NCBI RefSeq assembly: GCF_000223985.1
Contig: NZ_AFWV01000002.1
Coordinates: forward strand, 258,501 to 322,500
Direction of reading: 5' to 3'
Source: Thiocapsa marina 5811
GTDB taxonomy: Bacteria > Pseudomonadota > Gammaproteobacteria > Chromatiales > Chromatiaceae
DNA: 64,000 nt
The notes beneath the pieces are model-generated. The model was given only the letters and a program-made list of their open reading frames with translations, made no database searches and was not told the DNA's origin. Below are positions 36,121 through 50,976 of the stretch, piece by piece (positions within the stretch are counted from its first letter, which is position 1; each line of letters opens with the position of its first letter). The position numbers and the translations under genes are program-made.

Positions 36121-38502
36121 TCATGAACTGCTCGTGGCGTGTCGTGCCGCTCGAGTCAAGAGCCGAACGACCGCCTCCGGCGCAACCGGCGGGCTGAAGA
36201 GATAGCCCTGCGCACGTCGGCATCCGACCCCGATGAGAAAGCGGCGTTGTGCCTGTGTCTCGACCCCTTCGGCCAAGACCTCGAACCCGAGGCTGTTGCC
36301 GAGTGTCGTGATGGCGGTGACGATGGCTGCGCTGGCGGGGTCGTCCGGAAGCCCGCCGATAAAGCTCCGGTCGATCTTGAGTGTATCGAAGGGCAGCCCC
36401 TTGAGATAGGCGAGCGAGGAATAGCCGGTGCCGAAATCATCCATTGCCAATGCGATCCCCAGGTCCTTGAGATCGCCGAGGAGTTGCTGCGCGTCCTCGC
36501 GCAGATCCATGACGAAGGTCTCGGTGAGCTCGAGCTCGAGACGTTCCGCGCCCAGCCCGGTCTCGTGAAGGATGGATTCGAGCGTGCGTGCGAAATCGCT
36601 GCGCTGGATCTGAACACCGGAGACGTTCACGGCGATGCGCCCGAACGGGATCCCCGCGGCCTCCCATTCTCGGGCCTGGAGGCAGGCATGTCGCAACACC
36701 CAGGCGCCGAGCGGGATGATGAGTCCGGTTTCTTCGGCCAACCGAATGAAGCTGTCCGGCAGGACCATCCCGCGCTCGGGATGTTGCCAGCGCACCAAGA
36801 CCTCGAGCCCGGTCACCCGAGAGCTTGCGGTATCGACCAGCGGCTGATAGTGCAGTTGCAGCTCGTCGCGCTCGATCGCGCGGTTGAGCTCCGAGCTCAT
36901 GGTGACACGCTCGCGCGCATAGTCGGTCAGGCCGCGCGCATAGTGGCGGTAGGTATTGCCGCCGGCCTCGCGGGCTTGATAGAGGGCCGCATCGCAGTTC
37001 TGCATGAGCTCGGAGACATCGGTGCCGTCATCGGGATAGATGGCGATGCCGATGCTCGCGCTCATGAAGAGCTCCGAGCCATCCACCGTAAAGGTCTTGT
37101 TCAGGCTCTCCCGAATGCGCTCGGCCATCAGTGCGGCACGGGTATCGACGTCATCGTCGCCTTCGAGCAGCAAGGCGAGCTCGTCGCCGCTCATCCGTGC
37201 CACGGTCTCTTCGACGTGGGCCAGCAGGGTCACGCGCTTGGCCACCTCGCGCAGTGCGAGGTCGCCGACCGCGTGTCCGAGGCTGTCGTTGATGTGCCGG
37301 AAGCCGTCGATGTCGACCAGGAGCATGCCGACGCGGGCTCGGCTCGCGCCGGCGCGCAGCAGGGCCTGCTCCAAGTGGGTTCGGAACAGCAGCCGGTTGG
37401 GGAGGTCGGTGAGCGGGTCGCGGTGCGCCAGGCGCTCGATCTGCGCCTCGGAGCGCTTGACGTCGCTGAGATCCGAGAAGACGCCGACATAGTGTGTGGT
37501 TTGGCCCAGCTCCGAGCGCACGGCGTTGATGTTGACCCATTGCGGATAGATCTCGCCGTCCTTGCGGCGGTTCCAGACCTCGCCGCGCCAGTGTCCTCGA
37601 TCCAGCAGGGCCTGCCACATCTCCTCGTAGAAGGGCTGCTCGTGCCGTCCGGATTTGAGCAGGCTCGGGTTGCGACCCAGCACCTCCTCGGGGGGGTAGC
37701 CGTTGATCTCGGTGAAGGCCGGATTGACCGCGATGATCAACGGGGTCGTATCCGTGATGACCACGCCCTCGCTGGTGCTCTCGAAGACGGCGGCCGAGAG
37801 ACGTAGGCCCTCTTCGGCGGTCTTGCGCTCGGTGATGTCCTGAAAGGCGCCTTGCACATGGGCAATGCGGCCCGAGACGTCGCGAACCGCGGCACCGATG
37901 GTGCGGACCCAGACCCGCCGACCCTTCGCGGTGATGATCTGCAGCTCTTCGTCGTAACCGACACCCGCGCGCGCGCAGGCCGTGAAGACGCGCGTGATGC
38001 GCTCTCGCCACTCGGGCGCATAGTAAGAGATGCCGTCCTCCACGGGCACCACCGTGCCGGGCGGCACCTCGTGGATTCGGCAGACCTCGTCCGACCAGGT
38101 CACCCGGTTGGCGAGGAGGTCGACATCCCAAGCACCGATCCGTGCGAGGTCCGCGGCCATCCGCACCAGACGGTCGCGTTCATTTAGCCCGGCCTGCGCG
38201 AGCTTGTGCTCGGTGACATCGCGCAGGTAGACCACGAAGACCTCATCCCCGTCCATCGCCATCTCGACGCAGCGCATGTCCGCCGAGAGGATGCGGCCGG
38301 CGCATGGAATCTCGATCTCGGTCGGCTCGTCCGGGATGACGACAAAGCCGAAATCAGCGCCCAGTAGCGCTTGAACGGAACGACCGAAGAGAGACGCGGC
38401 AGCGTCGTTCGCGTATCGGATGACGCCCTGCCGGTCCAGCATCAGGATGGCGTCCGATGCCAGCGCAACGATTCGCTCGAAGTCAACGCGGCACGCGGCC
38501 AT
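36121..38502 (-). CDS. PAS-GGDEF-EAL protein translationally coupled to kaiB
   Basis: 793 residues from the ATG at 38502, which shares one base with the kaiB stop (TGATG). Three PAS domains (about 8-110, 120-230, 235-355) precede GGDEF (about 365-525) and EAL (about 535-785). The GGDEF signature is SGDEL, a degenerate form. The EAL half has EVLVRW in place of EALVRW but keeps NVSGVQ, DDFGTGYSSLAYL and EGVET, so phosphodiesterase activity is plausible. The first PAS binds no obvious cofactor. Position in a kaiC-kaiB operon suggests that it is an output or partner of the Kai proteins. That is inference. Confidence 0.87.
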   Translation of the reverse strand: MAACRVDFERIVALASDAILMLDRQGVIRYANDAAASLFGRSVQALLGADFGFVVIPDEPTEIEIPCAGRILSADMRCVEMAMDGDEVFVVYLRDVTEHKLAQAGLNERDRLVRMAADLARIGAWDVDLLANRVTWSDEVCRIHEVPPGTVVPVEDGISYYAPEWRERITRVFTACARAGVGYDEELQIITAKGRRVWVRTIGAAVRDVSGRIAHVQGAFQDITERKTAEEGLRLSAAVFESTSEGVVITDTTPLIIAVNPAFTEINGYPPEEVLGRNPSLLKSGRHEQPFYEEMWQALLDRGHWRGEVWNRRKDGEIYPQWVNINAVRSELGQTTHYVGVFSDLSDVKRSEAQIERLAHRDPLTDLPNRLLFRTHLEQALLRAGASRARVGMLLVDIDGFRHINDSLGHAVGDLALREVAKRVTLLAHVEETVARMSGDELALLLEGDDDVDTRAALMAERIRESLNKTFTVDGSELFMSASIGIAIYPDDGTDVSELMQNCDAALYQAREAGGNTYRHYARGLTDYARERVTMSSELNRAIERDELQLHYQPLVDTASSRVTGLEVLVRWQHPERGMVLPDSFIRLAEETGLIIPLGAWVLRHACLQAREWEAAGIPFGRIAVNVSGVQIQRSDFARTLESILHETGLGAERLELELTETFVMDLREDAQQLLGDLKDLGIALAMDDFGTGYSSLAYLKGLPFDTLKIDRSFIGGLPDDPASAAIVTAITTLGNSLGFEVLAEGVETQAQRRFLIGVGCRRAQGYLFSPPVAPEAVVRLLTRAARHATSSS

Positions 38503-38783
38503 CAATCGACCTTGAGATCGAGACCGATCAAGACCTTCTCTCGCTCGGAGAGATCGCCGACCACGCGTCGCATCGGAGGGGGCAGCTTCCTGATGACCAC
38601 GGGTGTGGCGAGGATGCGCTCGTCCTCGGCGAGCTGGGGACGCTTGAGGATGTCGATCACCTCGATCTGCAGGACCAGATCCGCGGTGGCGACCTCGACG
38701 GCGAGCTGCTCCAGATTGCGCACGGCCCGATCGGCAGCGGGCGTCCGACCGGCGATGTAGAGTCTCAAGAGATGGGTCGTCAT
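38502..38783 (-). CDS. kaiB: KaiB-family circadian clock protein
   Basis: 93 residues. The KaiB signature is clear: HLLRLYIAGRTPAADRAVRNL, VIDILKRPQLAEDERILATP, and LPPPMRRVVGDLSEREKVLIG. Cyanobacterial KaiB is a thioredoxin-like, fold-switching protein that binds KaiC. The gene overlaps kaiC by 4 nt (ATGA) and the following GGDEF-EAL gene by 1 nt. No kaiA is present, as in other non-cyanobacterial kaiBC loci. Confidence 0.95.
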   Translation of the reverse strand: MTTHLLRLYIAGRTPAADRAVRNLEQLAVEVATADLVLQIEVIDILKRPQLAEDERILATPVVIRKLPPPMRRVVGDLSEREKVLIGLDLKVD

Positions 38784-40519
38784 GCGCGGCCTCGTCCGAT
38801 CGCGGTCCGCGTGCGCTCGATGGCCGCAAGACGGCGCTCGATCTCGGCGGCCTGACGGTCGAGAGCGGCGGTCTTCACCTCGTGCTCGGCCCGCGCCAGG
38901 CGCTCGTTGGCGGCCTGGATCTCGCCCAGCTCGGCGCGCAACTGACGCGCGCGCTCGAGATCGAGATGGAGTTGGCTGATCGTCTCCTCGTCTTCCGTTT
39001 GACGCGCCATGCGCGCGGTGCCGTAGACGATGCCGCCCTCGCCGACATAGGGGTCGACGATCTGCAGCCCGTCGCGGCTCATTCGAAACTCCTTCACCTG
39101 ATCCGAGGTCGGCAGGCCGCGGGCCTTCACGACCGTGATCAGCCGGTTCATTTCGCCGTCGTTTTCGTGTCGGCGCAGCTTGATCCAGACATCGATGATG
39201 GAGGAGACATCCAGATGACTCACCCCGGAGCCGTCGTCGGCGAGCAGCTCGGTCGCGACCGTGGTGACGCCTTCCTCCTTGATCAGGTGGAGCAGGCGCA
39301 GCAACATCTCCTTGGCGACAGGGTCGCGGCTGCGCGCGGCCAAACCGCTGATCGGATCGAGGATGACGAGCGCCGGGCGATGTTGGCGGACCGAGCGGAT
39401 GGCGCGCATCAGATGCTCCTCCAGACCCAGCTCCACCGCGCGAACCGGCTGCAGCAGCAGGGCGCCGAGCCCGTCGACGGTGCCGCCGTCCGTGCGGTGA
39501 TAACGGGCGAGGTCGATGCCGAGACTGCGCTGGTTGCGGATCAGCTCGTCGAGGCTCTCCTCGAAACTGATGTAGAGGACCGACAGCCCGGCCTCGCACG
39601 CGGCGCGGGCAAAGCTGCACGCGATGCTGGTCTTGCCGGTGCCGGCCTGCCCGGACAGCAGTGTGATCGAGCCCAGGTAGGGGCCTTGGCCGCCGAGCAT
39701 CGCGTCCAGCCCGGAGATGCCGGTCGACAGACGCGTGTCGGACACCTTGGCGCTGAGAACGGAGCCGGTGATCGGAACCAGGAAGATCCCGCCGCGATCG
39801 AGCAGGAAGGGATACTCGTTGGAGCCGTGCGCGGCGCCGCGGCGTTTGACCACGCGCAGCACGCGCGTCATCACGCGGTTGCTGACCTCTTGGGTGAGGG
39901 CGATGACGCAATCGGCGATATAGTCCTCGAGTCCGTAGCGGGTGCTGAAGTCGGCATATTCGCCGACCGTGATGAGACAGGTCACGGCGCGCTCGCGGAT
40001 CCAGTCGAAGACATGCGTCAGCTCGCCGCGCAGGCTCGGCAGATCCGCGAAGCCCGTTTCCATGCCGTCGACGGCGTCCAGCACGAGACGTGTTGCGCCC
40101 AGACTGTCCAGCGCAAAGCCGATGCGGGCGAGGACGGCCGTCAGCTCGATGGTCTCGCCGACCTGCACCTCGTTGCGATCCGGGCGCATGTCCAGGATGC
40201 GCAAACGCCCTTCGGCCAGATAGCGCCGGGCGGGAAACCCGAAGCCCTCGGCATGACCGAGCAGGGCCTCGGGGGCCTCGTCGAAGGTGACGAAGACCGC
40301 GGTCTCGCCCGCCGCGATCCCCTGGCAGAGAAAGGTCAGCGCGATGACGGTCTTGCCGGTGCCGGCGGCGCCGCGCAGCAGGGTCGGGCGCCCGGCCGGG
40401 AGACCACCTTGAAGAATGAAGTCGAGCCCTTCGATGCCGGTGGCGATCGGGGGCTTGTGCATGGATTCCAAGGCCGAGTCCGATGCGGGGACGTCGGCGT
40501 TGGTCGGGAGTCTGGTCAT
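38780..40519 (-). CDS. kaiC: KaiC-family double-RecA ATPase/kinase with a C-terminal coiled coil
   Basis: 579 residues from ATG 40519, with AAGG five bases upstream. CI has Walker A GAAGTGKT (50-57) and the acidic pair D80-E81. CII has Walker A GQAGTGKT (290-297) and the acidic pair E320-E321. The segment equivalent to cyanobacterial Ser431-Thr432 reads SHLDVSSIID here, so the phosphosites would be two serines (439-440), with two extra residues before them. CI has D80 where cyanobacteria have Glu. Residues about 510-575 form a charged heptad-rich coiled coil, longer than the standard KaiC tail. It heads the kaiC-kaiB-GGDEF-EAL operon. Confidence 0.95.
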   Translation of the reverse strand: MTRLPTNADVPASDSALESMHKPPIATGIEGLDFILQGGLPAGRPTLLRGAAGTGKTVIALTFLCQGIAAGETAVFVTFDEAPEALLGHAEGFGFPARRYLAEGRLRILDMRPDRNEVQVGETIELTAVLARIGFALDSLGATRLVLDAVDGMETGFADLPSLRGELTHVFDWIRERAVTCLITVGEYADFSTRYGLEDYIADCVIALTQEVSNRVMTRVLRVVKRRGAAHGSNEYPFLLDRGGIFLVPITGSVLSAKVSDTRLSTGISGLDAMLGGQGPYLGSITLLSGQAGTGKTSIACSFARAACEAGLSVLYISFEESLDELIRNQRSLGIDLARYHRTDGGTVDGLGALLLQPVRAVELGLEEHLMRAIRSVRQHRPALVILDPISGLAARSRDPVAKEMLLRLLHLIKEEGVTTVATELLADDGSGVSHLDVSSIIDVWIKLRRHENDGEMNRLITVVKARGLPTSDQVKEFRMSRDGLQIVDPYVGEGGIVYGTARMARQTEDEETISQLHLDLERARQLRAELGEIQAANERLARAEHEVKTAALDRQAAEIERRLAAIERTRTAIGRGRA

Positions 40520-40562
40520 CTCGACCTTGGTTTCTCGTATCGTAGCGATGTTGATAGTCCGA

Positions 40563-40751
40563 TCAGCTTGGCTCGGGTTTGCGCGCCGCTGCCGTTTGGT
40601 CGGTCGGCACACGCACACCCTCCATTATGGACCAACTCTCCGGGAAGGCGGCTGCCGCCAAGGGTCGACCATACAGGTAACCCTGCCCTTCGTCACAGAA
40701 TTCCGTGCGCAGGACATCCGTGATCCACGCCATCGAAGAAGGCCAACGCAT
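40563..40751 (-). pseudogene. Remnant of an EAL-domain C-terminus
   Basis: The minus-strand frame carries CDEGQGYLYGRPLAAAAFPESW, of which CDEGQGYLYGRPLAA matches the conserved final strand of EAL domains. The rest of an EAL domain is absent upstream, where the CheW-like gene ends at 40755. It is a leftover fragment of a lost c-di-GMP gene lying between the chemosensory and kai genes. Confidence 0.6.
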
Positions 40752-40754
40752 CCT

Positions 40755-41249
40755 TTACTGGTGGATCATCCGAGGGGCCGTGCGTGCCTCGTTCGGGAAG
40801 CGCCGAGGGTCGAGCAGGATGGCGAGGTCGTCCGCGTTCGTCGTGGAGAGTGCGACCATGCCTCGCACGCAGGGCAGCGCGGACAGGGCCTCCATGAGTG
40901 CGGGCAGTGGATGGATCGCGTCGAACGGCACGTGCCGTAGCGAGATCGGCTCCCCGATGCGCATCCCTCCGGTCTGCGATGCGTCTTGCGCGGCGTCCCG
41001 CGGGCCGTTTCGAAACCGGAGCAGACGTTCGCGCGATCCATGCGTGTCGGGCGACGTCGCGGAGCGTGCGTGCGCGAGGCCGAGCAGATCGGCCAACGCG
41101 GGCGCCTGCACGTCCGGGGTCTCGGCGGGATCGGCGATGCCTCGGATCTGCTCGGAGTCAACGGCGAACCTCAGTGCGCCGAGGTTGAAGAGCACCAGAT
41201 CGATGCCGCCCTCGACGCGCGTGTCTTGCGCTTCGTCTGTGCGCGTCAT
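40755..41249 (-). CDS. CheW-like coupling protein (second)
   Basis: 164 residues from ATG 41249, five bases after the stop of the first cheW. It opens with a CheW fold start (IDLVLFNLGALRFAVDSEQIRGIAD) and ends LAILLDPRRFPNE. The middle is diverged. It probably serves as an alternative scaffold for the receptor-kinase array, or as a regulatory decoy. Last gene of the chemosensory operon. Confidence 0.7.
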   Translation of the reverse strand: MTRTDEAQDTRVEGGIDLVLFNLGALRFAVDSEQIRGIADPAETPDVQAPALADLLGLAHARSATSPDTHGSRERLLRFRNGPRDAAQDASQTGGMRIGEPISLRHVPFDAIHPLPALMEALSALPCVRGMVALSTTNADDLAILLDPRRFPNEARTAPRMIHQ

Positions 41250-41254
41250 CCGCG

Positions 41255-41803
41255 TCACCGCTGCTCGGGCAACAGGGTCTGAAACAGCCGATCCAGATCG
41301 AGCAGGATCACGATCTGTCCCTGATGCTCGAACACCCCGGTTGCGAGCCCGCGCAGAGGCTCGGGCAGGCTGTCCGGCGGGGCTTGGATGGACTCCTCGG
41401 TCACGTCCAGCACGTCGACCACCCGATCGACCCGCAACCCGCTGCGCACCTGCGTGCCTTGGCCGAGCAGGATGGCCGAGCGACGGGCCGACGGCGCATG
41501 CGTCATGCCGAGCAGATCGCCGAGTCGGACCACCGAGGCGATATCGCCGCGGACATTGATGACGCCCTCCAACGCCGGCGGACAACCCGGGACGAAATGG
41601 ATGGTCGTAAGCGGGAGGATCTCCACCAGCACGCGCGCGGGCAAGGCCAGCGGCGTCTCGCCGACGACGAAGATCACGAGCTTGACCTTGGCGGTCTCGA
41701 CCTCGAGGATCCGGGCGCCGGCTTCGCGCCGTCGATCCAGGATCATGTCCAGGGTGTCGCGCTCGGAGGGCTCGGCGTCTGGTTCGGTGCGCTCAAGATC
41801 CAT
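41255..41803 (-). CDS. cheW: CheW chemosensory coupling protein
   Basis: 182 residues. After a polar N-terminus of about 40 residues the CheW domain is evident (KLVIFVVGETPLALPARVLVEIL, GVINVRGDIASVVRLGDLLG, GVFEHQGQIVILLDLDRLF). It should link the MCP to the hybrid CheA. The start overlaps the end of the GGDEF regulator by 11 nt. Confidence 0.88.
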   Translation of the reverse strand: MDLERTEPDAEPSERDTLDMILDRRREAGARILEVETAKVKLVIFVVGETPLALPARVLVEILPLTTIHFVPGCPPALEGVINVRGDIASVVRLGDLLGMTHAPSARRSAILLGQGTQVRSGLRVDRVVDVLDVTEESIQAPPDSLPEPLRGLATGVFEHQGQIVILLDLDRLFQTLLPEQR

Positions 41804-43592
41804 CGGATGTCTCCGCCGAGTCGGGCGATTGCTCGGGTAGCGCGTCTTGCTCGGTCGCGATCTCGACCCGATTGCGACCGCCCTTTTTGGCCCGGTAAAG
41901 CGCCCGATCCGCGGCCTCGGTCAGGGCGTCGGGGGTGGCGAAGGTCGGAAAGTCCGACACCCCGACGCTGAAGGTGCAGTGGAACTCTTGTCCGTCCGAG
42001 AAGAAGGTCACGTTGGAGAAGCTGGTGCGCAATGCATCGAGGATGCGCTTGGCCGGCTCGACGCCCGCGCCGTTGAGGACCACCGCGAACTCCTCCCCGC
42101 CGTAGCGACCGACCAGGTCGTCCTCGCGCAGGCGCATGCGCAGCGTCCGGCTCAGCGCCATGAGAACCTGGTCGCCGGTCGGATGGCCGTAGGTGTCGTT
42201 GACCGATTTGAAGTGATCGACGTCGATCATGGCGAAGCACAGGGAGGTCCCGCCCCGGCGCGCATTCGCCACTGCGACCTCGAGAAACTGCATGATGGCG
42301 TTGTGGTTGAAGAGCCCGGTCAGACCGTCGCGGACCATCAGCGAGTGCAGGATGCGCATCCGCTCGGCCCGCAGAGCAACCTCGGCGACGAGTCGCGCCG
42401 GCTCGATCGGCTTGGTCAGGAAGCCGTCGGCACCGACCGCGAGCGCCTTGTGCTGGCGCTCCACGTCGGTCTCGGAGGAGACATAGATGATCGGCAGGCT
42501 GACGTGCCCCGGGATCTGGCGCAGGATCCGCGACAGCTCCGGACCCGAACAGTCCGGCATGTACATGTCCATCAGCACCAGGTCTGCATCGAAGGTGTCG
42601 AGCAGACTCAGCACCTGCTCCGGGTTGCTCACCGCTTTGGCGACCATGCCGGCCTCTTCCAGGACCGTGGCGTGGAACTGGGCCAGCTCGCGGTCGTCGT
42701 CCACCACCAGGACGTTGATGGGCTCGGGCGGATGCGGGTTGGTGAGCGCATCGAGGAATTCCAGCAGCTCGACCGTCTTGATCGGCTTGGTGCAGTAGGC
42801 ACTGCCGCCGGCACGCACCGCCTGAAGGCGACCCTCGAAGTCGTCGCGACAGGAGATGAAGATGCAGGGGATCGTCTCCTGCTCTGCGCTCCGGAGCTCG
42901 GCCAGCATCTTCGGCCCTGCGTTCTCGTCCTCCGGGAAGACGATGTCGAGGATGATCGCCGCCGGGCGTTCGCTCTCGACCGCCGTGCGCAGGTCGGCGA
43001 GGGTCGTGAAGGCCCGCACGCGATAGCCGAAACAGCCGAGCTGACCGGCCAGTTGCGCGGCAAGATCCGGGTCGTCGTCGCAGAGATAGACCATCCGCTG
43101 ACTGCGATCGGCAGGTTGTCCGGGGTGTGCGTCGGGCGCTTGTCCGGGTGCGGGTTCGGGCCGGGACTGCGGCCCGGGCAGCTCGAATCCGGGAGCCGTG
43201 TCCGGATCCGCCTGGACATCGGCGGCGAGCGCCAACGCGTCCAGATCGTCCAACAGACACGCGAGCTCGGCCGGCAGTGTCGGCTCGACGTGACCGCCCG
43301 AGTCCATGGCCCGGCGCACGGCCTGCTCGGCGGTTCTGGCGGCGTCTCCGATCTGTCGAAAGCCGAAGGTGGCGCCTGATCCCTTCAAGGTGTGGAACAG
43401 GACGTAGAGTGCGTCGAGCCGCGCGTGCTCGATCTCGCCCGCGCGCAGCTCGGCGACGGCGCGGCGCGCATCGGCAAGACGCCCGGGCAGCTGGGACAAA
43501 AAGGACGCGCGCAGGCGCGCCTTGCGGCTCTGAAAGGATTCGGCCTTGTCCGGCGCGGCGGGCTTGGGGGCCTTGTCCCGTTCGGCGTCCAT
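41793..43592 (-). CDS. Hpt-REC-REC-GGDEF response regulator, diguanylate cyclase output of the chemosensory operon
   Basis: 599 residues. An Hpt domain comes first (FHTLKGSG, His67), then REC1 (about 167-285, phospho-Asp D216), REC2 (about 293-408, D342, with SSE and TKP switch residues) and GGDEF (about 420-585). The active-site motif is GGEEF (498-502) with an RxxD inhibitory site (REDD, 489-492) five residues before it, as in PleD. It is therefore a likely active, product-inhibited c-di-GMP synthase controlled by phosphorylation. It is analogous to WspR but with extra Hpt and REC domains. Next to cheW and cheA. Confidence 0.92.
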   Translation of the reverse strand: MDAERDKAPKPAAPDKAESFQSRKARLRASFLSQLPGRLADARRAVAELRAGEIEHARLDALYVLFHTLKGSGATFGFRQIGDAARTAEQAVRRAMDSGGHVEPTLPAELACLLDDLDALALAADVQADPDTAPGFELPGPQSRPEPAPGQAPDAHPGQPADRSQRMVYLCDDDPDLAAQLAGQLGCFGYRVRAFTTLADLRTAVESERPAAIILDIVFPEDENAGPKMLAELRSAEQETIPCIFISCRDDFEGRLQAVRAGGSAYCTKPIKTVELLEFLDALTNPHPPEPINVLVVDDDRELAQFHATVLEEAGMVAKAVSNPEQVLSLLDTFDADLVLMDMYMPDCSGPELSRILRQIPGHVSLPIIYVSSETDVERQHKALAVGADGFLTKPIEPARLVAEVALRAERMRILHSLMVRDGLTGLFNHNAIMQFLEVAVANARRGGTSLCFAMIDVDHFKSVNDTYGHPTGDQVLMALSRTLRMRLREDDLVGRYGGEEFAVVLNGAGVEPAKRILDALRTSFSNVTFFSDGQEFHCTFSVGVSDFPTFATPDALTEAADRALYRAKKGGRNRVEIATEQDALPEQSPDSAETSDGS

Positions 43593-43610
43593 CGTTTTCG
43601 CGCGACCTCG

Positions 43611-43961
43611 TTAGAGTCCGGCGACGGCCGCCGGCAATGTGACCTCGAGCGACGCATCCTTCGTCAGGCAGGCGGCAAGGCCGGGGACCTGCTCGCGCAG
43701 CGGCTCCGGGTCGTCACCGGTGAGGAGGACGAAGGGGATCGGGATGCCCCGATCGCGCATCTCCCGAAACAGGTCCAAGCCGCTCGAGAGCGGCATGTGC
43801 ATGTCCGAGATGACAAGCTCGAATCGCTCGTGTTCCTCGCCGAGTGCGTCGAGTGCCTCCACGCCGCTCTCCACGAGCTTACAGTCGTGTCCTTCCGCAT
43901 CCAGAATGGCCTCGGCCATCGCTCCGGCGAAGGGATCATCGTCGACGATCAAGATACGCAT
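43611..43961 (-). CDS. Single-domain response regulator (CheY-like)
   Basis: 116 residues from ATG 43961. Receiver motifs are ILIVDDDPFA and the phospho-Asp in LVISDMHMPLSSG; the T is in LLTGDD and the K in CLTKD. No output domain. It probably relays or drains phosphate from the adjacent hybrid CheA. Confidence 0.88.
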   Translation of the reverse strand: MRILIVDDDPFAGAMAEAILDAEGHDCKLVESGVEALDALGEEHERFELVISDMHMPLSSGLDLFREMRDRGIPIPFVLLTGDDPEPLREQVPGLAACLTKDASLEVTLPAAVAGL

Positions 43962-44110
43962 GACAAACGGTCCTCGGTAACGTGTCGGAAATAAGTCGAG
44001 CATCGAAACAAATCGCTGTCGATTACGACAACGACAGCCGTGGCAAAGGAGCGCTCCCGTCGAGAGTTGTTTCAATCATTTTTGAACCGTTCCTCATCGG
44101 CTGTGTGTGA

Positions 44111-46411
44111 TCAGCCGAGCAGATTCCGCAGGGTGTCGACGAGATTCGATTGGTCGAAATCGCCTTTCACGATATAGGCGTCGGCGCCGACCTGGATGCC
44201 CCGCTGTTTGTCCTCGCGGGTCTGACGCGAGGTGACGATGATGATGGGCGTGGAGCGGTATTTGTCGTTCTCGCGCAGCTTGGCGGTGAGTGAAAAGCCG
44301 TCCAGACCGGGCATCTCGACATCGGTGAGAACGGCGTCGAAGCGCCCGCCCACGGCCTTCTGCCAGCCGTCGAGGCCGTCTTCGGCCAGGGTGACGCGAT
44401 AGCCCGACGCCTCGAGGACCTCCTTCTCGATCTCGCGCGTGTTCAACGAGTCGTCCACCACCAGGACGTGCTGGCCCTGTTGTCCGTCATGCCGACGTGC
44501 CGAGTCCTTCACCGCTGCCTTGATCGCCTCGCCGCGCATACGTCGTGCCGCGTCCAGCAGGGCGGGGGCCTGGAGCAGGCTGACCAGCGCTTTGGTGCCG
44601 GTGACGACCACGCCGCCGACCAGTCCGCCGAGCGGACCCCGGCCGCGCATGTGCTCGGGCAGCGGCTTGAGGACCATGTCGCGCTCGTCGACGAGCTGAT
44701 CCACCACAAGCCCGAGTTTTGCCTGTCGTACCCCGATGATGACGACCAGGAGGGACTCCTCGTCGAGTCCGCGCCGCCCGTGCGCGGATGACTCGCTCGG
44801 TGCGGGCAGACCCAGGAGGTCGGCCAGGGGTATCAAGGGGACCAGCTCGTTGCGGAGCACGACCGCCGGGCGTCCGGCGACCTGAATCGTCTCGGAGCGG
44901 GAGGTGCGGATCAGCTCGGAGACGTGCGGGGCGGTCAACCCGAAGCAGTGCCCGGCCGCTTCGAGCAGCAGGATGCGCATCACCGCCAGGGAGAGCGGGA
45001 GCTTGAGCGTCAGGGTGGTTCCGGCGCCCGGTCGCGTGTTGATCGAGACCGAGCCTTGCATGTCGTCGGTAATGGCGCGCTTGACCACGTCCATCCCGAC
45101 ACCGCGTCCCGAGACCTCGGTGATGATTGCGCTGGTGCTGAAGCCGGGTTGGAAGATGAGGTCGGCGACCTGCTCGTCGGTGATCTCTCGGCCGGCACCG
45201 GTCTCGATCAGGCCCTTTTGGATTGCCTTCTCGAGGATGCGCGCGCGGTCGAGTCCGCGGCCGTCGTCGCTGATGGCGATCAGCACGGCGCCGCCTTCTT
45301 GACGCGCCGAGAGACTGATCTGCCCGAGCGCCGGCTTGCCGGCCGCCAGACGATCCGCGGCCGACTCGATACCGTGGTCGATGGCGTTGCGCACCAGATG
45401 GACCAGCGCATCGCCGAGGTGGTCGACGATCTGGCGGTCGAGCTCGATCTCGCTGCCGCTCGTCTCGCACCGAATCTCCTTGCCGAGCGAGCGCCCGAGC
45501 TCGCGCGCGACCCGGGCGATCGGGTCCAGGACCGTGCCGAGAGGCAGCATCCGCATGCCGAGTGCCCGGTCGTTGAGCTCGCCGGTCAGCCGCTCTTGAT
45601 CGAGTGTCAGGTCGCGCAGATCGAGCGTGAACCGATGCAGTGCGCGGGCAAGCTCCGCCGACGTGCTCCCCGTTTCGGCAACGCTCCGTGCAGCCACCGC
45701 TCCGGCCGCGGCGTCGAGCAGGCGCGCCTCGCTCAGTGCGTGACGCAGCCGCGCCTGGTTGGAGACCATCTCGCCCATCAGTTTGACCAGGGCGTCGAGC
45801 TTGTCCATCCGCACGCGCACGCTCTCGGGTGCACGGATGCCGGTCGCGGCCTCGGGGCCTGTCGGCTGCGGGAGCTGCGGCGTCGGGTCCGGTGCCGACA
45901 CGGGAGGCGCGGGCGGTCCGGCCGGTATGTCGCCTCGGGTCGAGCACGGCGTTGCGTGCGCATCGGCGGCGGCCGACCGGTCTGCAGCCGATATCGGGCC
46001 CGGCTCGGACCAATCGCCTGCGGCGGCCCGGGTCAGACGCTCGCACAGGGCTTGATCCGGTGGCCCGGAGGCCGCGCCGGCGCCGGAGGCGGCGACCTCT
46101 TCGATCATTGCCCCGATCCCGTCGACGGCGCGCATCAGGAGTGCGGCGAGTGCCGGGTCGGGCTGGATCTTGCCTTCGCGCAAGACACCGAGCACGTCTT
46201 CGAGATGGTGGGCGGTCTCGGCGATGCTCGCGAGCTTGAGCATGCGCGAGGATCCCTTGATGGTGTGGGCGGATCGGAAGAGGGCGTCGATGCCGTCTCG
46301 GTCGCCCGCGCCCGCCGTCCCGAGCGTGGCGAGTCCGGTCTCGAGCCGGGCGATATGCTCGCGCGCCTCGTCGACGAAACGACCGATGAATTTGGTGATG
46401 TCGAGCGCCAC
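44111..46411 (-). CDS. cheA: Hybrid CheA-type histidine kinase with C-terminal receiver
   Basis: 766 residues. The Hpt domain has the phosphorylated His49 in SAHTIKGSS. After a Pro/Ala-rich linker come the dimerisation region (about 200-300), the HATPase (LVRNAIDHGIE, DDGRGLD, GRGVGMDVVK), a CheW-like regulatory domain (about 490-620) and a REC domain (about 640-762; VLVVDDSLN, LTDVEMPGLDG). It has a single Hpt, no CheY-binding P2 and a fused REC, like WspE, so the system likely serves something other than flagellar control. Confidence 0.92.
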   Translation of the reverse strand: MALDITKFIGRFVDEAREHIARLETGLATLGTAGAGDRDGIDALFRSAHTIKGSSRMLKLASIAETAHHLEDVLGVLREGKIQPDPALAALLMRAVDGIGAMIEEVAASGAGAASGPPDQALCERLTRAAAGDWSEPGPISAADRSAAADAHATPCSTRGDIPAGPPAPPVSAPDPTPQLPQPTGPEAATGIRAPESVRVRMDKLDALVKLMGEMVSNQARLRHALSEARLLDAAAGAVAARSVAETGSTSAELARALHRFTLDLRDLTLDQERLTGELNDRALGMRMLPLGTVLDPIARVARELGRSLGKEIRCETSGSEIELDRQIVDHLGDALVHLVRNAIDHGIESAADRLAAGKPALGQISLSARQEGGAVLIAISDDGRGLDRARILEKAIQKGLIETGAGREITDEQVADLIFQPGFSTSAIITEVSGRGVGMDVVKRAITDDMQGSVSINTRPGAGTTLTLKLPLSLAVMRILLLEAAGHCFGLTAPHVSELIRTSRSETIQVAGRPAVVLRNELVPLIPLADLLGLPAPSESSAHGRRGLDEESLLVVIIGVRQAKLGLVVDQLVDERDMVLKPLPEHMRGRGPLGGLVGGVVVTGTKALVSLLQAPALLDAARRMRGEAIKAAVKDSARRHDGQQGQHVLVVDDSLNTREIEKEVLEASGYRVTLAEDGLDGWQKAVGGRFDAVLTDVEMPGLDGFSLTAKLRENDKYRSTPIIIVTSRQTREDKQRGIQVGADAYIVKGDFDQSNLVDTLRNLLG

Positions 46412-46421
46412 GAGGCGTGTC

Positions 46422-47933
46422 TCAGGCCGCGGCGTCGGCCAGACGGGCCAGGCGCGTCTCGCACAGGAAACGCAGATCCTTCACCGACAGGAGCGAGGGC
46501 AGTGCGCCCGCGCGCTGCATCGCGAGCGTCTCGTTCTGCAGCTGGCGCAGCACGATCCGGTATTCCCGCTCTGCCGCGCCGGTCTCGCCGCGCTGGCGAT
46601 AGGTCTCGGCGAGCTGGTAATGGGCCCGCCAGCAGCTCGGCGTGTCGTAGACCACCCGACGCAAGGCGTTGATCGCTCCCAGTGTGTCGCCGCGCAGACG
46701 TGCGCAGCGCCCGAGCAGAAGGAGCGCGTCCGAAGACCAGGGGTCTTGGGTCAGCACGCGCCGCGCGGCCGCTTCGGCGCCGGCCGTGTCGCCGCGCTCG
46801 AGCAGTAGATGGGCTTGGAGCGCGAGGTGCTCGGGCGCAGCCTCCTTGCGATCGCAGAGCGGGGCGAGATGCCGAAGCGCCTCCTCGAAACGTTCCGAAC
46901 GGGCCGAGGTCATGGCCTGCGCGTAACGTTCAGGATCGGCCGGGGTCCCGGACGGCACGATCGGTCCGGCCGTGTCCGGACGAGGGTCGATCGCGCCCGG
47001 ATCGCCTCGGTCGGTCGAGGCGGGCCGAGTCGATCCGGCTCGGAGATCACGGGCGCTCGCGGGCGTCGTGACCGCCGTGCCCGAGCGTGCGACGAATCCG
47101 CGGCTCGCGCGTCCCGGCGTGGGTTCGACGGGGGTTTTGTCGAACAGGAAGACGCCGTCCAGGTCACGCAGGCGCATCAGACCGAAGTCGTTGGCCAGCG
47201 TCTCCGAGGTGCCGACGATCAGATGCCCCCCTGGTTTGAGCAGGTCACGTAAACGCGTCATGACCGCCTTGCGGGTCGCCGGGTCGAAATAGATGGAGAC
47301 ATTGCGGAAGAAGATGATGTCTTGTCCCGGTATGGCCGTCGGGTAGGTCGGTGCCGCCAGGTTCCAGGAGACGAAATCGACCTGTCGCCGGATCGTCCCG
47401 TCGACGCGGCGATGCGTCCCGTCGACCCTGGAGAACCAGCGATCCCGCAGCTCGGCAGGCAGTGCCCGAAAGGCGAACGGCCCGTAAACCGCGGCGCGGG
47501 CGCGTTCCAGTGCTGCGTCGTCGACGTCCCCTGCGGTGATGCGGAACAGATGCTCCGAGAGCTCGCCGTAACGCTCGCGTAAGGCGATGGCAATCGAATA
47601 GGGCTCTTCTCCGGTGGAGCATCCCAAGGAGAGTATTCGGATCGGATTGCCCTTCGCGGCTTGTGCCATGCGCGCGGGCACGAGTCGCTCCACGAGCAGT
47701 TTCAGATGTGCCGGCTCGCGGTAGAAGTAGGTCTCGTTGACGGTCAGGAGACCGGTCAGACGACCGAGCTCGACCGGATCGGCAGCGGCGGATTGGAGAT
47801 AGGCCTCGATGGATCCCGCGGCGGTCGCACTCATCCTGCTCGCCAGGATGGAGCTGAGTCGCTCATCCGCGTCCGGGCCGAAGTGCAGTCCGAGCCGATC
47901 GTTGATAAAGGACTTGAACGAGCGGATCGGCAT
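46422..47933 (-). CDS. cheR: CheR-type MCP methyltransferase with TPR extension
   Basis: 503 residues. The CheR core shows NETYFYREPAHL, the SAM-binding LSLGCSTGEEPYSIAIAL and FFRNVSIYFDP (usual CRNVLIYF). Residues about 360-490 are TPR-like repeats, as in WspC. It methylates receptor glutamates to tune adaptation. Its start overlaps the cheB stop by one base, and cheA follows after 10 bp. Confidence 0.92.
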   Translation of the reverse strand: MPIRSFKSFINDRLGLHFGPDADERLSSILASRMSATAAGSIEAYLQSAAADPVELGRLTGLLTVNETYFYREPAHLKLLVERLVPARMAQAAKGNPIRILSLGCSTGEEPYSIAIALRERYGELSEHLFRITAGDVDDAALERARAAVYGPFAFRALPAELRDRWFSRVDGTHRRVDGTIRRQVDFVSWNLAAPTYPTAIPGQDIIFFRNVSIYFDPATRKAVMTRLRDLLKPGGHLIVGTSETLANDFGLMRLRDLDGVFLFDKTPVEPTPGRASRGFVARSGTAVTTPASARDLRAGSTRPASTDRGDPGAIDPRPDTAGPIVPSGTPADPERYAQAMTSARSERFEEALRHLAPLCDRKEAAPEHLALQAHLLLERGDTAGAEAAARRVLTQDPWSSDALLLLGRCARLRGDTLGAINALRRVVYDTPSCWRAHYQLAETYRQRGETGAAEREYRIVLRQLQNETLAMQRAGALPSLLSVKDLRFLCETRLARLADAAA

Positions 47934-49009
47934 CAGACGATCCCGCCGCCCTGCGCAGTGCGACGACCGGCCAGCATGCAGAGCTTGGCTGCGATGAGAT
48001 CGAGCGGCAGCGTCAGCTGCACGCCGCCGGCGAGGATCGCCTCGCGGTTCATGCCGAAGATGACCGAGGTGGCCTCGTCTTGGGCGATGGTCGTCCCGCC
48101 GGCCTTGGCGAGCGCGAGCATCCCTTGTGCGCCGTCGCGTCCCATCCCGGTGAGGATCACGCCCACGGCATCGCGCCCGACCTGCGCCGCGACGCTCGCC
48201 AGCAGCCGATCGCAGCTCGGGCGATACATGTCGGTCTCCACGCGTTGCTCCAAGCGGATACGCCGTCCGGCACCCAGCGTCATGTGGGTGATCGAATCGG
48301 CGAGATAGATCTGCCCCGGCACGAGTGCCTCGCCCTCGACGGGGATCTTCACGGGCAGCGCGCAGAGGTGGCTCAACCAGTCGGCCATTGCCCCGGCGAA
48401 GCCATCGGAGATGTGCTGGGCGATCAAGACCGGGGCCGCAAAGTCTGCGGGGAGGTCCGGTAGGATGCGAGCGAGGGCCTGAGGTCCGCCGGTCGAGGAG
48501 GCGATGGCCACGACCGGCGAGCCGCGGCGGCTCGGCTCGGTGGGTGTGCGCGCGTCAAGGTGAGCGGGGGGCGATGGATCTTCGGGTCCGAATTTGACCG
48601 TGAGTGCGCCATTGCGGCGGATATGGCGGATGACCGGAATCCGCGCCAGGATGCGCAGGCGCATCGCCAGTCCCGGCCCCTCGTCGAAGGCGGGCTTGCG
48701 CGCGGCCTCGAGCGCGCCCCGGGCGACCGCGGCGATCGCATTGCGGGCGTCGGCCAGGTCGGAGAGGACCAGGATGGGCACGGCATGGCGGGACATGATC
48801 TCCTCGATTGCCTGCATCCCGTCCATTTCGGGCATCTGAAGGTCCATGGTGACGATATCCGGCTTGAGCGCCAGGGTCTTTTCGACCGCCTCTCGACCAT
48901 CGGCGGCTTCGCCGCAGACGATGAGCCCCGGCGCCGCTTCGATCAGCGCCCGGATCAGGCTCCTCGCAGAGCGGCTGTCGTCGACCACCAAGACCCGTAC
49001 CGGTTGCAT
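47933..49009 (-). CDS. cheB: CheB-type receptor methylesterase with receiver domain
   Basis: 358 residues. The REC domain (VLVVDDSRSARSLI, phospho-Asp in IVTMDLQMPEMDG) is joined to the methylesterase domain. The catalytic triad region is visible: Ser in IASSTGGPQA, His in AQHISDGFAGAM and Asp in GMGRDGAQGM. It opposes CheR. It overlaps cheR by 1 nt and follows the MCP gene by 14 bp. Confidence 0.94.
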   Translation of the reverse strand: MQPVRVLVVDDSRSARSLIRALIEAAPGLIVCGEAADGREAVEKTLALKPDIVTMDLQMPEMDGMQAIEEIMSRHAVPILVLSDLADARNAIAAVARGALEAARKPAFDEGPGLAMRLRILARIPVIRHIRRNGALTVKFGPEDPSPPAHLDARTPTEPSRRGSPVVAIASSTGGPQALARILPDLPADFAAPVLIAQHISDGFAGAMADWLSHLCALPVKIPVEGEALVPGQIYLADSITHMTLGAGRRIRLEQRVETDMYRPSCDRLLASVAAQVGRDAVGVILTGMGRDGAQGMLALAKAGGTTIAQDEATSVIFGMNREAILAGGVQLTLPLDLIAAKLCMLAGRRTAQGGGIV

Positions 49010-49023
49010 CCATGGCTCCGTCG

Positions 49024-50976
49024 TCAGGACAGGCTCGATTCGCCGGGCGCGGCGGACGTCGCGTGTGTTTCGTTAAGCACGAACTGATCCAGACGCGATT
49101 GCAGGGCACTCGAGAGCTCGCTCATGTCGCGCGCGATGTCGGCGATTTGGCGCACTGCGCCGGCGGTCTCGGAGCTGGCGGCGACGATCTCGCGCAAGGC
49201 GATCACCACCTGACTGCTGGCGGTGCGCTGTTGTTGGGTCGAGAGACTGATCTGCTGGGCCGAGGTCGAGGTCTCGCTCGCGGCCTCGACGATGGCCTGA
49301 AGGATGTCGGCCGTGCCGGCCGAGTCCGCGATCCCCTGCTGGATCCCGGTGGAGCCCTTTTCCGAGCTGATCACGAGCCGGTTGATCGACTCTTGGATCT
49401 CGGCGACCTTGCCGGTGATCTCTCCGGTGGATGCGGTCACCGAGTCGGCGAGTCGACGGATCTCGGCGGCGACGACACCGAAGCGTTTTCCCGCCTCGCC
49501 TGCGGAGGATGCCTCCAGGGCCGCGTTGAAGGCGATCAGCTTGGTCTGATCCGCGACCGTATCGATGATCTGCATGATCTTGGAGATCTCCTTGGAGCGG
49601 GTGCCGAGCTCCAGGATCTCGTTCAGCGCGGTCTGATTGTCCTCGCCGATCCGTCGCATCTTCTCGACCAGGTGCTGCATGGCATCGGAGCCGCGCAGGC
49701 TGTCGTCGTAGGTCCGGCCGGCGATGGCGACGACGGACTCGGAATACTCCGCGATGTGGGTCGAGGAGGCGGAGAGCTCTTCCATCGTCGAGGTGATCTC
49801 GGCCACCGAGGCCGACATCTGACTGGATGTCGCGGCCTGTCCGTCGATCGCCTGCGCGATCTCGCGCGATGCCGCGTGGACCGAAAAGGCGCTGGTCTCG
49901 ACGCCCGTGACCAAGGCGTTGAGGTGCCCGCGCATCCCGTCGAGCGCGCGGGCAAGATCGGCCAGCTCGTCGTTGCCGTCGATCGCCTCGCCACTGCTCA
50001 GATCGCCGTTGGTCACACGATCGATCTCGTCGGCCAGACGGCGGATCCGTTTGGTGATCGCATGGGCAGTGATCAGCGAGATGCCGATACTGAAGAATGC
50101 GACCAGCACGCCGATGATCATGGCCTGCATACGCGTCTTGTCGAGGACTGCGACGTACGGGGTGCGATCCATCGCTACCTCGAGGACGCCGAACGGCTTG
50201 CCCGAATAGTCCGGAACCATCTCCGCATAGGCCGCGAACGGAGTCGTTTCGCTGTCGATCTCGGCAATCTGGGGCTCGCCTGCAAAGGCTGCCCTCAACG
50301 CATCCGGACCCAGGAAGGGCTGGCCTGCATGGGTACTTGCAAAGGTCTCGACCTCGCCGTCGCGTAGGATATACAGGGCGGCCTCGACGCCGTAGTTTGC
50401 CTTGAAGTCGTCGAAGAAGGGTTGGCCGAACGACATGCCGAATTCCACCGAGCCGAGGTGGCGCCCTGCCTGGAGGATCGGCACCACGCCGCGGGCGCCG
50501 AGACCCGCAACACCGACCTCCAACCCGCGGTGAGGCTCGCGATCGCGGTTGGTATCCACCACCGACTGGCGGAAGCTCGACAGGTCGTCGCCGAACTTCT
50601 CCAGCATGTGCAGTCGCAGGAAAGACATCGCCGGCGCGGTATGAAATTGGAACTGAACCGCGCCGAAGTCGCGCGCGAGGGCCTCGAACGGCGGGTGGAA
50701 TTGCTCCACGAGCCAGTCGCGATCGCCCGCGGCGAAGCGCGTCTGGACCTCCGGCATCTCGGCGACCAGGACGCCGAGTGCCTCCGCCAGGCCGACCTCC
50801 TCGCGGATCTGCGTCTGGACCATCGCCGCGAGCTGGCGCAGCTCGGACTCTTCGGCCGTGCGGCTAACGGTCTTGAGATTGTGAAGACTCACCAGCGTGA
50901 GCGTGGTGATGGCCAGGATGATCGCGGCGCCGATCACGAGGAGGATGTTGGCCCACAGGCGGATTTGCTTGAACAT
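49024..50976 (-). CDS. Methyl-accepting chemotaxis protein with dCache_3-like periplasmic sensor
   Basis: 650 residues from ATG 50976. TM1 is at about 9-29 and TM2 at about 284-304, enclosing a roughly 250-residue periplasmic domain. This carries FHTAPAMSFLRLH, GDDLSSFRQSVV and GLEVGVAGLGARGVVPI, as in double-Cache type 3 sensors. HAMP follows (about 305-360), then the signalling hairpin with tip DQTKLIAFNAALEASSAGEA. There is no CheR-tethering pentapeptide at the C-terminus. It is the first gene of the operon and supplies its input signal; the ligand is unknown. Divergent from malQ. Confidence 0.92.
   Translation of the reverse strand: MFKQIRLWANILLVIGAAIILAITTLTLVSLHNLKTVSRTAEESELRQLAAMVQTQIREEVGLAEALGVLVAEMPEVQTRFAAGDRDWLVEQFHPPFEALARDFGAVQFQFHTAPAMSFLRLHMLEKFGDDLSSFRQSVVDTNRDREPHRGLEVGVAGLGARGVVPILQAGRHLGSVEFGMSFGQPFFDDFKANYGVEAALYILRDGEVETFASTHAGQPFLGPDALRAAFAGEPQIAEIDSETTPFAAYAEMVPDYSGKPFGVLEVAMDRTPYVAVLDKTRMQAMIIGVLVAFFSIGISLITAHAITKRIRRLADEIDRVTNGDLSSGEAIDGNDELADLARALDGMRGHLNALVTGVETSAFSVHAASREIAQAIDGQAATSSQMSASVAEITSTMEELSASSTHIAEYSESVVAIAGRTYDDSLRGSDAMQHLVEKMRRIGEDNQTALNEILELGTRSKEISKIMQIIDTVADQTKLIAFNAALEASSAGEAGKRFGVVAAEIRRLADSVTASTGEITGKVAEIQESINRLVISSEKGSTGIQQGIADSAGTADILQAIVEAASETSTSAQQISLSTQQQRTASSQVVIALREIVAASSETAGAVRQIADIARDMSELSSALQSRLDQFVLNETHATSAAPGESSLS

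Follow-up and report, generated by a model that had tools for sequence, protein, structure and literature searches.

A chemosensory cyclic di-GMP operon and a kaiCB-GGDEF-EAL cassette arranged in tandem in Thiocapsa marina

The stretch of DNA analysed here (the window) comprises 64,000 nucleotides (nt) of Thiocapsa marina 5811, and the locus in question lies on its minus strand, where a chemosensory operon with a diguanylate cyclase as its output is followed by kaiC, kaiB and a PAS-GGDEF-EAL gene (gene B). The order from the methyl-accepting chemotaxis protein (MCP) to the PAS-GGDEF-EAL gene was borne out by open reading frame, Pfam and motif analysis of the window, and all genes named in a preliminary description of this DNA are present on the one strand. 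The layout is that of two known modules in tandem and not of one fused system; both modules are known separately, and what looks new is their adjacency. Judging by their motifs, the operon probably makes cyclic di-GMP (c-di-GMP) and the enzyme encoded next to the Kai genes probably degrades it. The features of the locus, in the order of transcription, are:

49024-50976, minus strand: MCP, a dCache_3-HAMP-MCPsignal chemoreceptor (Pfam)
47933-49009, minus strand: CheB, REC-methylesterase (Pfam)
46422-47933, minus strand: CheR with C-terminal TPR repeats (Pfam)
44111-46411, minus strand: CheA-REC hybrid kinase with Hpt, dimerisation, HATPase, CheW-like and REC domains (Pfam, motifs)
43611-43961, minus strand: stand-alone REC protein, CheY2-like (Pfam)
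41793-43592, minus strand: Hpt-REC-REC-GGDEF diguanylate cyclase, GGEEF and RxxD intact (Pfam, motifs)
41255-41803, minus strand: CheW (Pfam)
40755-41258, minus strand: CheW', a divergent CheW-like protein (predicted fold, position)
40514-40777, minus strand: relic of gene A, a deleted PAS-GGDEF-EAL gene (blastn/tblastn)
38780-40519, minus strand: KaiC with two ATPase domains, Ser439-Ser440 and a C-terminal helix at 502-578 (profile, structure matches, model)
38502-38783, minus strand: KaiB (profile, structure matches)
36121-38502, minus strand: gene B, with three PAS domains, a degenerate GGDEF site (SGDEL) and an intact EAL signature (domains, motifs, tree)
31855-35829, minus strand: DGC2, PAS/GAF-GGDEF-EAL with a degenerate GGDEF site (SGDNF) (domains, motifs, tree)

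The tight overlaps described earlier were confirmed, with 4 nt shared by kaiC and kaiB and 1 nt by kaiB and gene B. CheW' and KaiC are separated by 235 nt (40519-40755), the relic of gene A slightly overlapping the ends of both, and DGC2 starts 291 nt downstream of gene B on the same strand. Genome-wide, we counted one KaiB match, one KaiC match at E ≤1e-60, six CheB-methylesterase and 32 EAL matches.

The chemosensory operon

The gene order and content of the operon equal those of chemosensory cluster 2 of Halomonas titanicae KHS3, as set out in the available part of PMC5907407. We found the order MCP-CheB-CheR-CheA-CheY-DGC-CheW-CheW3, an Hpt-REC-REC-GGDEF cyclase with its phosphosites, a CheR with TPR repeats, a CheA with a C-terminal REC domain, and a small second CheW that lacks a sequence match and has a CheW-like fold. 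The same part of that paper names the Chromatiales among the carriers of cluster 2 and describes no Kai genes, whereas downstream of the operon in the window come the gene A relic, kaiCB, gene B and DGC2. GGEEF, RxxD, the Hpt histidine and both REC aspartates are all present in the cyclase; the output had been called intact and phosphorylation-controlled, and the intact motif is confirmed, whereas the domain composition suggests the control by phosphorylation.

Two CheW proteins had also been described. The first is a CheW by Pfam, and the second (CheW') is CheW-like by predicted fold, having no match in Pfam or NCBIfam at thresholds of 0.01 and 0.001. Its AlphaFold model (predicted local distance difference test, pLDDT, 78.6) retrieved 18 Foldseek matches at E ≤0.021, every one of them a CheW, CheA or chemotaxis core-unit structure, with the next match at E 0.92. 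By its position, CheW' corresponds to CheW3 of the H. titanicae cluster.

The description of the operon as a Wsp-like c-di-GMP chemosensory system proved sound in terms of content. An MCP, a CheR-TPR, a CheA-REC, a CheB, two CheW proteins and a diguanylate cyclase output are common to both, as far as the available parts of PMC8552884 and PMC3447774 describe Wsp, but the gene order is different, the cyclase is of the Hpt-REC-REC type (one REC in Wsp), and there are an extra REC protein and a degenerate second CheW. Strict membership of the Wsp group (wsp order, one-REC WspR output) was ruled out by the gene order and the domains of the cyclase.

The Kai genes and their GGDEF-EAL neighbours

The closest solved structure to KaiC is that of Rhodobacter sphaeroides (8DBA, E 1.4e-115). 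Ser439 and Ser440 align with the Ser-Ser pair at chain index 415-416 of 8DBA, which we take to be Ser413/Ser414 of the available text of PMC10076222, since the same offset of two holds for the Trp419 of that paper; the Trp is also aligned, and S439, S440 and W445 are invariant across 17 aligned relatives. Both ATPase domains carry a Walker A motif, with a catalytic pair of Glu-Glu in CII, and the protein passed the cut-off of NCBIfam NF006799 (510 versus 408 bits). In the monomer model a long C-terminal helix spans residues 502-578, as in the R. sphaeroides protein, and could serve a coiled-coil dodecamer. No KaiA was found in 11 Thiocapsa genomes in a search whose positive control was found in Synechococcus elongatus only. 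KaiB matches solved KaiB chains, which we take to be cyanobacterial, at E 1.6e-25, and Lpp1115 (4KUN), presumably the Legionella KaiB, at E 1.1e-18. The Thiocapsa pair thus resembles the KaiBC hourglass of R. sphaeroides in the lack of KaiA, the Ser-Ser pair, the long C-terminal helix and the best solved match; it differs in that no c-di-GMP partner is described in the available part of PMC10076222.

Gene B has a complete EAL signature, and its GGDEF site reads SGDEL. In a GGDEF-EAL tree, whose bootstrap was not fully settled, gene B falls in one clade (support 98/90) with the kai-linked genes of the other Thiocapsa, of G074 and G062, of Halorhodospira abdelmalekii and of Thioalkalivibrio AKL19, the last on a long branch; the partner clade is therefore common to Thiocapsa, two other Chromatiaceae genera, Halorhodospira and Thioalkalivibrio. 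Within this clade the motif reads GGDEF in Halorhodospira and Thioalkalivibrio, SGDEF in G074, G062 and T. imhoffii DSM 21303 (G005), and SGDEL in the window, T. roseopersicina DSM 217 (G002), Thiocapsa sp. KS1 (G008), G004 and G010, a series that suggests drift towards a phosphodiesterase. Protein B is thus by its motifs predicted to be mainly a c-di-GMP phosphodiesterase, in agreement with the earlier claim that kaiC-kaiB is linked to a GGDEF-EAL protein on the phosphodiesterase side. The remaining kai-linked GGDEF-EAL genes scatter over several clades, some of them mixed with own-genome paralogues. The tree omitted three own-genome EAL loci that yielded no match of sufficient length, the two weakest EAL matches, and the genes of G527 and G104. 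In G063 and G057 a GGDEF-EAL gene directly follows cheW', forming one clade with DGC2 (100/100), and G104 has a similar gene near the cyclase.

A kaiCB pair followed by a GGDEF-EAL gene recurs beyond Thiocapsa. The combination of kaiCB and B without Che genes is found in G074 and G062 (KaiC 71-73% identical), in H. abdelmalekii and in Thioalkalivibrio AKL19. A same-strand GGDEF-EAL gene lies within 3.5 kb downstream at 22 of the 38 Chromatiales KaiC loci, in 10 of 16 genera, at 4/15 class or named loci and at 1/36 phylum-wide KaiB loci; two of the 38, and several in the other two sets, are cut off after a few kb by the end of a contig. The random expectation is about 1%, on the assumption that other genomes have the EAL density measured here (32 genes in 5.59 Mb). 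The 38 loci are the matches at E ≤1e-95 minus seven window-type Thiocapsa rows (19 weaker rows were excluded), and four of them are of a second Thiocapsa kai type described below. Flanks were fetched for 8 of the 19 other matched genomes (G053, G404, G330, G208, G112, G149, G426 and G233), 7 of 11 named-relative loci were counted (three Thiocapsa loci and one weak locus of a metagenome-assembled genome were excluded), and the phylum set consists of 36 loci from 34 other genomes.

This context agrees with earlier work. The available part of PMC3164672 (2011) states that almost all clustered kaiC-kaiB genes outside cyanobacteria directly precede a histidine kinase or GGDEF/EAL gene, and its 'orange group' combines this order with ST or SS sites; gene B, immediately downstream of kaiB, belongs to this context, but no tie to a Che operon is described there. 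In the purple sulfur bacterium Thiodictyon syntrophicum, the kai genes also lie beside a diguanylate cyclase gene, and a connection with flotation in the chemocline was proposed; there the type is kaiCBB, the cyclase is described as upstream, and no Che operon is mentioned in the available part of the text (PMC5944118). A tie between c-di-GMP and the Kai clock was described in Synechococcus, where induction of a phosphodiesterase lengthened the circadian period by 0.6 h and c-di-GMP was without effect on KaiB-KaiC binding in vitro, but that is a KaiABC system and the direction is from c-di-GMP to the clock (PMC13001216, available part). The text of PMC5520375 makes no mention of GGDEF, c-di-GMP, EAL domain or purple sulfur. 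We found no published locus joining kaiBC and a c-di-GMP chemosensory operon in a literature search that mostly did not extend to subscription journals; the earlier statement that its author knew of no described locus of this kind stands, each half being described separately.

The locus in Thiocapsa and in other genomes

Five further Thiocapsa genomes share the order Che-kaiCB-B, beside malQ, dsrC and degQ; with the window this makes six genomes, which rules out chance adjacency. Between cheW' and kaiC, gene A is open in G002, G005, G008 and G010, encoding a PAS-GGDEF-EAL protein with GGDEF and EAL-type motifs, and in G003 it is open ahead of a kaiC remnant. It overlaps cheW' by 26-41 nt in G002, G003, G008 and G010 and lies 43 nt before kaiC in G002 and G008, 20 nt in G005 and 299 nt in G010 (start codons were chosen by script, and that of G005 is uncertain). 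The window retains codons 271-296 of gene A at 40776-40699 and codons 753-803 at 40718-40569, and G004 retains other pieces (codons 3-61 and 698-803), so that the two losses look like separate deletions. That gene A is a long-standing partner of kai is not supported: at three loci of the genus g16, the GGDEF-EAL genes upstream of kaiCB cluster in a separate clade next to A. In these three g16 genomes (L166, L184 and L185), kaiCB is sandwiched between upstream and downstream GGDEF-EAL genes and has no CheA core.

Genes of the Kai cassette are missing or damaged in three (G001, G003 and G004) of the eight Thiocapsa that, by the Che tree, would descend from its insertion, and the Che genes stay open. 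In G001, kaiC and kaiB are gone together with most of A and B, of which scraps remain (A codons 1-71 and pieces of B). The kaiC of G003 lacks its first 481 codons; what remains (L087 2407-2700) is an open frame of codons 482-579, mainly the C-terminal helix, which lies 4 nt downstream of gene A, with an open kaiB behind it. In G004, B is split between frames, as is no other window-type gene there, and reads DDFGTS in place of the DDFGTG of the other B rows looked at. A frameshift in the KaiC of G008 was set aside as a case of loss: DsrC, CheR and CheA are also frame-split there (L029), so that indel errors in the assembly are likely.

In the Che tree, G006 is sister to the other eight Thiocapsa with the operon (99/98); it has the Che operon, and the Kai genes are not beside it. 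The simplest account would be one insertion of the cassette between cheW' and DGC2 after the split of G006. Neither the cyclase nor KaiC was detected in G007 and G009 at the thresholds used.

Pairwise omega against the window (our own Nei-Gojobori script, some pairs covering part of the gene) was 0.15-0.23 for kaiC, 0.07-0.21 for kaiB and 0.16-0.23 for cheA. For cheW' it was 0.42-0.74, the highest in the operon among the comparisons made. The two Kai genes are thus held about as firmly as cheA, and cheW' is held loosely. The synonymous distance (dS) between G010 and the window is 0.71 for kaiC and 1.13 for kaiB versus 0.31-0.49 for their neighbours, as though the kaiCB allele had been exchanged within a locus otherwise conserved. 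At this G010 locus (L027 1897-3890), kaiC and kaiB are 71-75% identical to those of the window, and the neighbouring operon genes mostly 80-90%. The KaiC tree was built without the fragment of G003 and the pieces of G008. Four Thiocapsa genomes, G003, G010, G005 and G006, carry a second kai type, KaiC-KaiB-KaiB (L030, L033, L034 and L037); these loci have no GGDEF-EAL gene just downstream and no CheA core.

The survey of relatives proposed in the preliminary description had a divided outcome: the linkage is kept inside Thiocapsa and, as sampled, is nearly absent outside it, with the exception of G711. The cyclase was found at E ≤1e-80 in 22 of 77 family genomes, three of them Thiocapsa. Among the 17 non-Thiocapsa cyclase loci with flanks (from 17 of the 19 matched non-Thiocapsa genomes, G013 and G016 being left out), 11 show CheA and the cyclase, and none shows KaiC. 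Conversely, once loci of the window type are set aside, a CheA core was absent from all 53 KaiC loci of the order, class and named sets (regions of 20 kb at most) and present at 2/36 phylum loci, L195 (G711) and L201. The CheA of L201 is of a different kind, and the region read shows no cluster-2 cyclase. L195 (2-10413) comes from a distant family of Pseudomonadota. It combines a cluster-2 type CheR-CheA-REC-cyclase with KaiB-KaiC-KaiB, which is encoded on the opposite strand at a distance of about 3.6 kb; a GGDEF-like match sits between the two.

Outside Thiocapsa, 24 of 76 Kai-bearing genomes contain the cyclase at E ≤1e-90 (G028, G468, G526 and G531 were left out); distant matches (37-41%) are the second match in G014 and G105 and the sole match in G493. 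In G711 only are the two within 10 kb; six more genomes have them on the same contig at distances of about 138 kb to 3.8 Mb, and the other 17 have them on different contigs of draft genomes, which carry little information beyond the flanks read. Together, the family, KaiC-locus and 76-genome surveys rule out Che-Kai linkage as a general rule.

Reading of the locus and its alternatives

We favour the reading, with a probability of roughly 0.65, that the locus comprises two known c-di-GMP modules in tandem, the second being a KaiBC-gated phosphodiesterase unit, and that the two have contact only through co-expression and a shared pool. In such a scheme, a signal at the MCP would pass to CheA and by phosphotransfer to the REC and Hpt domains of the GGEEF cyclase, which would then make c-di-GMP, as expected of an alternative cellular function (ACF) operon of the cluster 2 type. 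The KaiA-less KaiC with its long C-terminal helix would serve as a gauge of energy (ATP/ADP) or time and, together with KaiB, would control the phosphodiesterase B. The cassette would have entered the interval between cheW' and DGC2 after the split of G006, either along with gene A or beside it, and any meeting of the two modules would most likely be confined to co-expression and the common c-di-GMP pool. In favour of this reading are the synteny in Thiocapsa, the occurrence of each module on its own elsewhere, the kai-linked clade of gene B, the DGC2 relatives directly after cheW' in G063 and G057, the position of G006 in the Che tree, the 22 of 38 Chromatiales loci, the likeness of KaiC to the R. 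sphaeroides protein, the lack of KaiA and the low omega of kaiC and kaiB.

Several observations weigh against this reading. The control of B by KaiC and KaiB is putative, and the SGDEL site of B may still cyclise, since some SGDEF proteins are active cyclases. KaiC failed the cut-off of the cyanobacterial TIGR02655 (250 versus 546 bits), its catalytic pair in CI is Asp-Glu and not Glu-Glu, and KaiB is below both NCBIfam KaiB cut-offs (99 versus 110 bits, and 95 versus 145 for TIGR02654), so that a clock function cannot be assumed. The partnership of kaiCB with GGDEF-EAL is not universal, since 16/38 Chromatiales, 11/15 class or named and 35/36 phylum loci have no downstream GGDEF-EAL gene by the criterion given above, some of them being cut short at a contig end, with two named Ectothiorhodospira (KaiC 63-64%) among the loci without one, and the EAL density behind the 1% expectation was measured in one genome. 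G006 is also without DGC2 beside its Che operon, so that a single insertion would call for a further loss or rearrangement there, and a DGC2-like gene is near the cyclase in just 3 of the 17 family loci. Finally, a terminator-like site at 44035-44012, within the 149-nt gap between CheA and REC, indicates that the Che operon may have internal attenuation; the whole scan was close to chance (one promoter-like site versus a mean of 1.0, eight terminator-like sites versus 5.2).

A tighter integration, in which everything from the MCP to gene B forms one operon and KaiBC directly gates the c-di-GMP of the array via CheA or B, would fit the collinearity conserved in Thiocapsa, the operon-like spacing in G002 and G008 (cheW' overlapping gene A by 34-41 nt, gene A lying 43 nt before kaiC) and the absence of a minus-strand terminator-like site in 40519-40755, a weak test. 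This we consider distinctly unlikely, given that the modules occur apart in the other sampled loci, G711 excepted, that the cassette is damaged in three of the eight presumed post-insertion Thiocapsa with open Che genes, that G010 has apparently swapped its kaiCB for a divergent allele without a like change in the neighbours, and that the gap between CheA and REC contains a terminator-like site. The proposal that the array and KaiBC make up one conserved circuit is not supported: none of the 17 cyclase loci outside the genus shows KaiC, kaiCB-GGDEF-EAL units occur without Che genes, the two are close together in just one (G711) of the 24 genomes outside Thiocapsa that hold both, and the cassette is damaged in three Thiocapsa. 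A direct contact between Kai proteins and the array, for which gene order speaks, is otherwise unsupported. At the opposite extreme, the kaiCB-GGDEF-EAL unit might be mobile or hitch-hiking, with KaiBC and B functionally separate and B obeying its own PAS domains. Such a view would account for the losses and damage in Thiocapsa, for the many kaiCB loci without a downstream GGDEF-EAL gene and for the several unrelated GGDEF-EAL lineages that adjoin kaiCB, as might occur in genomes rich in such genes; the 22 of 38 loci in 10 of 16 genera versus about 1% expected, the extension of the kai-linked B clade to Halorhodospira and Thioalkalivibrio and the low omega of kaiC and kaiB make it unlikely.

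KaiBC could also be a stress or redox module, as has reportedly been proposed for Legionella, with c-di-GMP as its output and no role as a gauge of time or energy. The match of KaiB to Lpp1115, the lack of KaiA in Thiocapsa and the KaiB scores under both cut-offs are in line with this, but KaiB is nearer to the cyanobacterial chains, and two Walker A motifs, the Ser-Ser pair and a long C-terminal helix align KaiC with the hourglass of R. sphaeroides; we give this alternative little credence.

To our knowledge, the targets of KaiBC outside cyanobacteria are largely open, and the recurrent kaiCB-GGDEF-EAL neighbourhood points to a concrete, testable output, c-di-GMP. A bolder version, which we offer as a doubtful speculation, is that the KaiBC gauges of purple sulfur bacteria act via c-di-GMP by directly switching a dedicated phosphodiesterase clade, that of B, and that in Thiocapsa this switch came to share one transcription unit with a chemoreceptor-controlled cyclase. 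If this were true, the energy state of day and night would set the gain of the chemosensory c-di-GMP response. The genus Thiocapsa presents natural contrasts at this one locus, with genomes in which the cassette is intact, KaiC is truncated, the cassette is lost, or, as in G006, none lies beside the operon.

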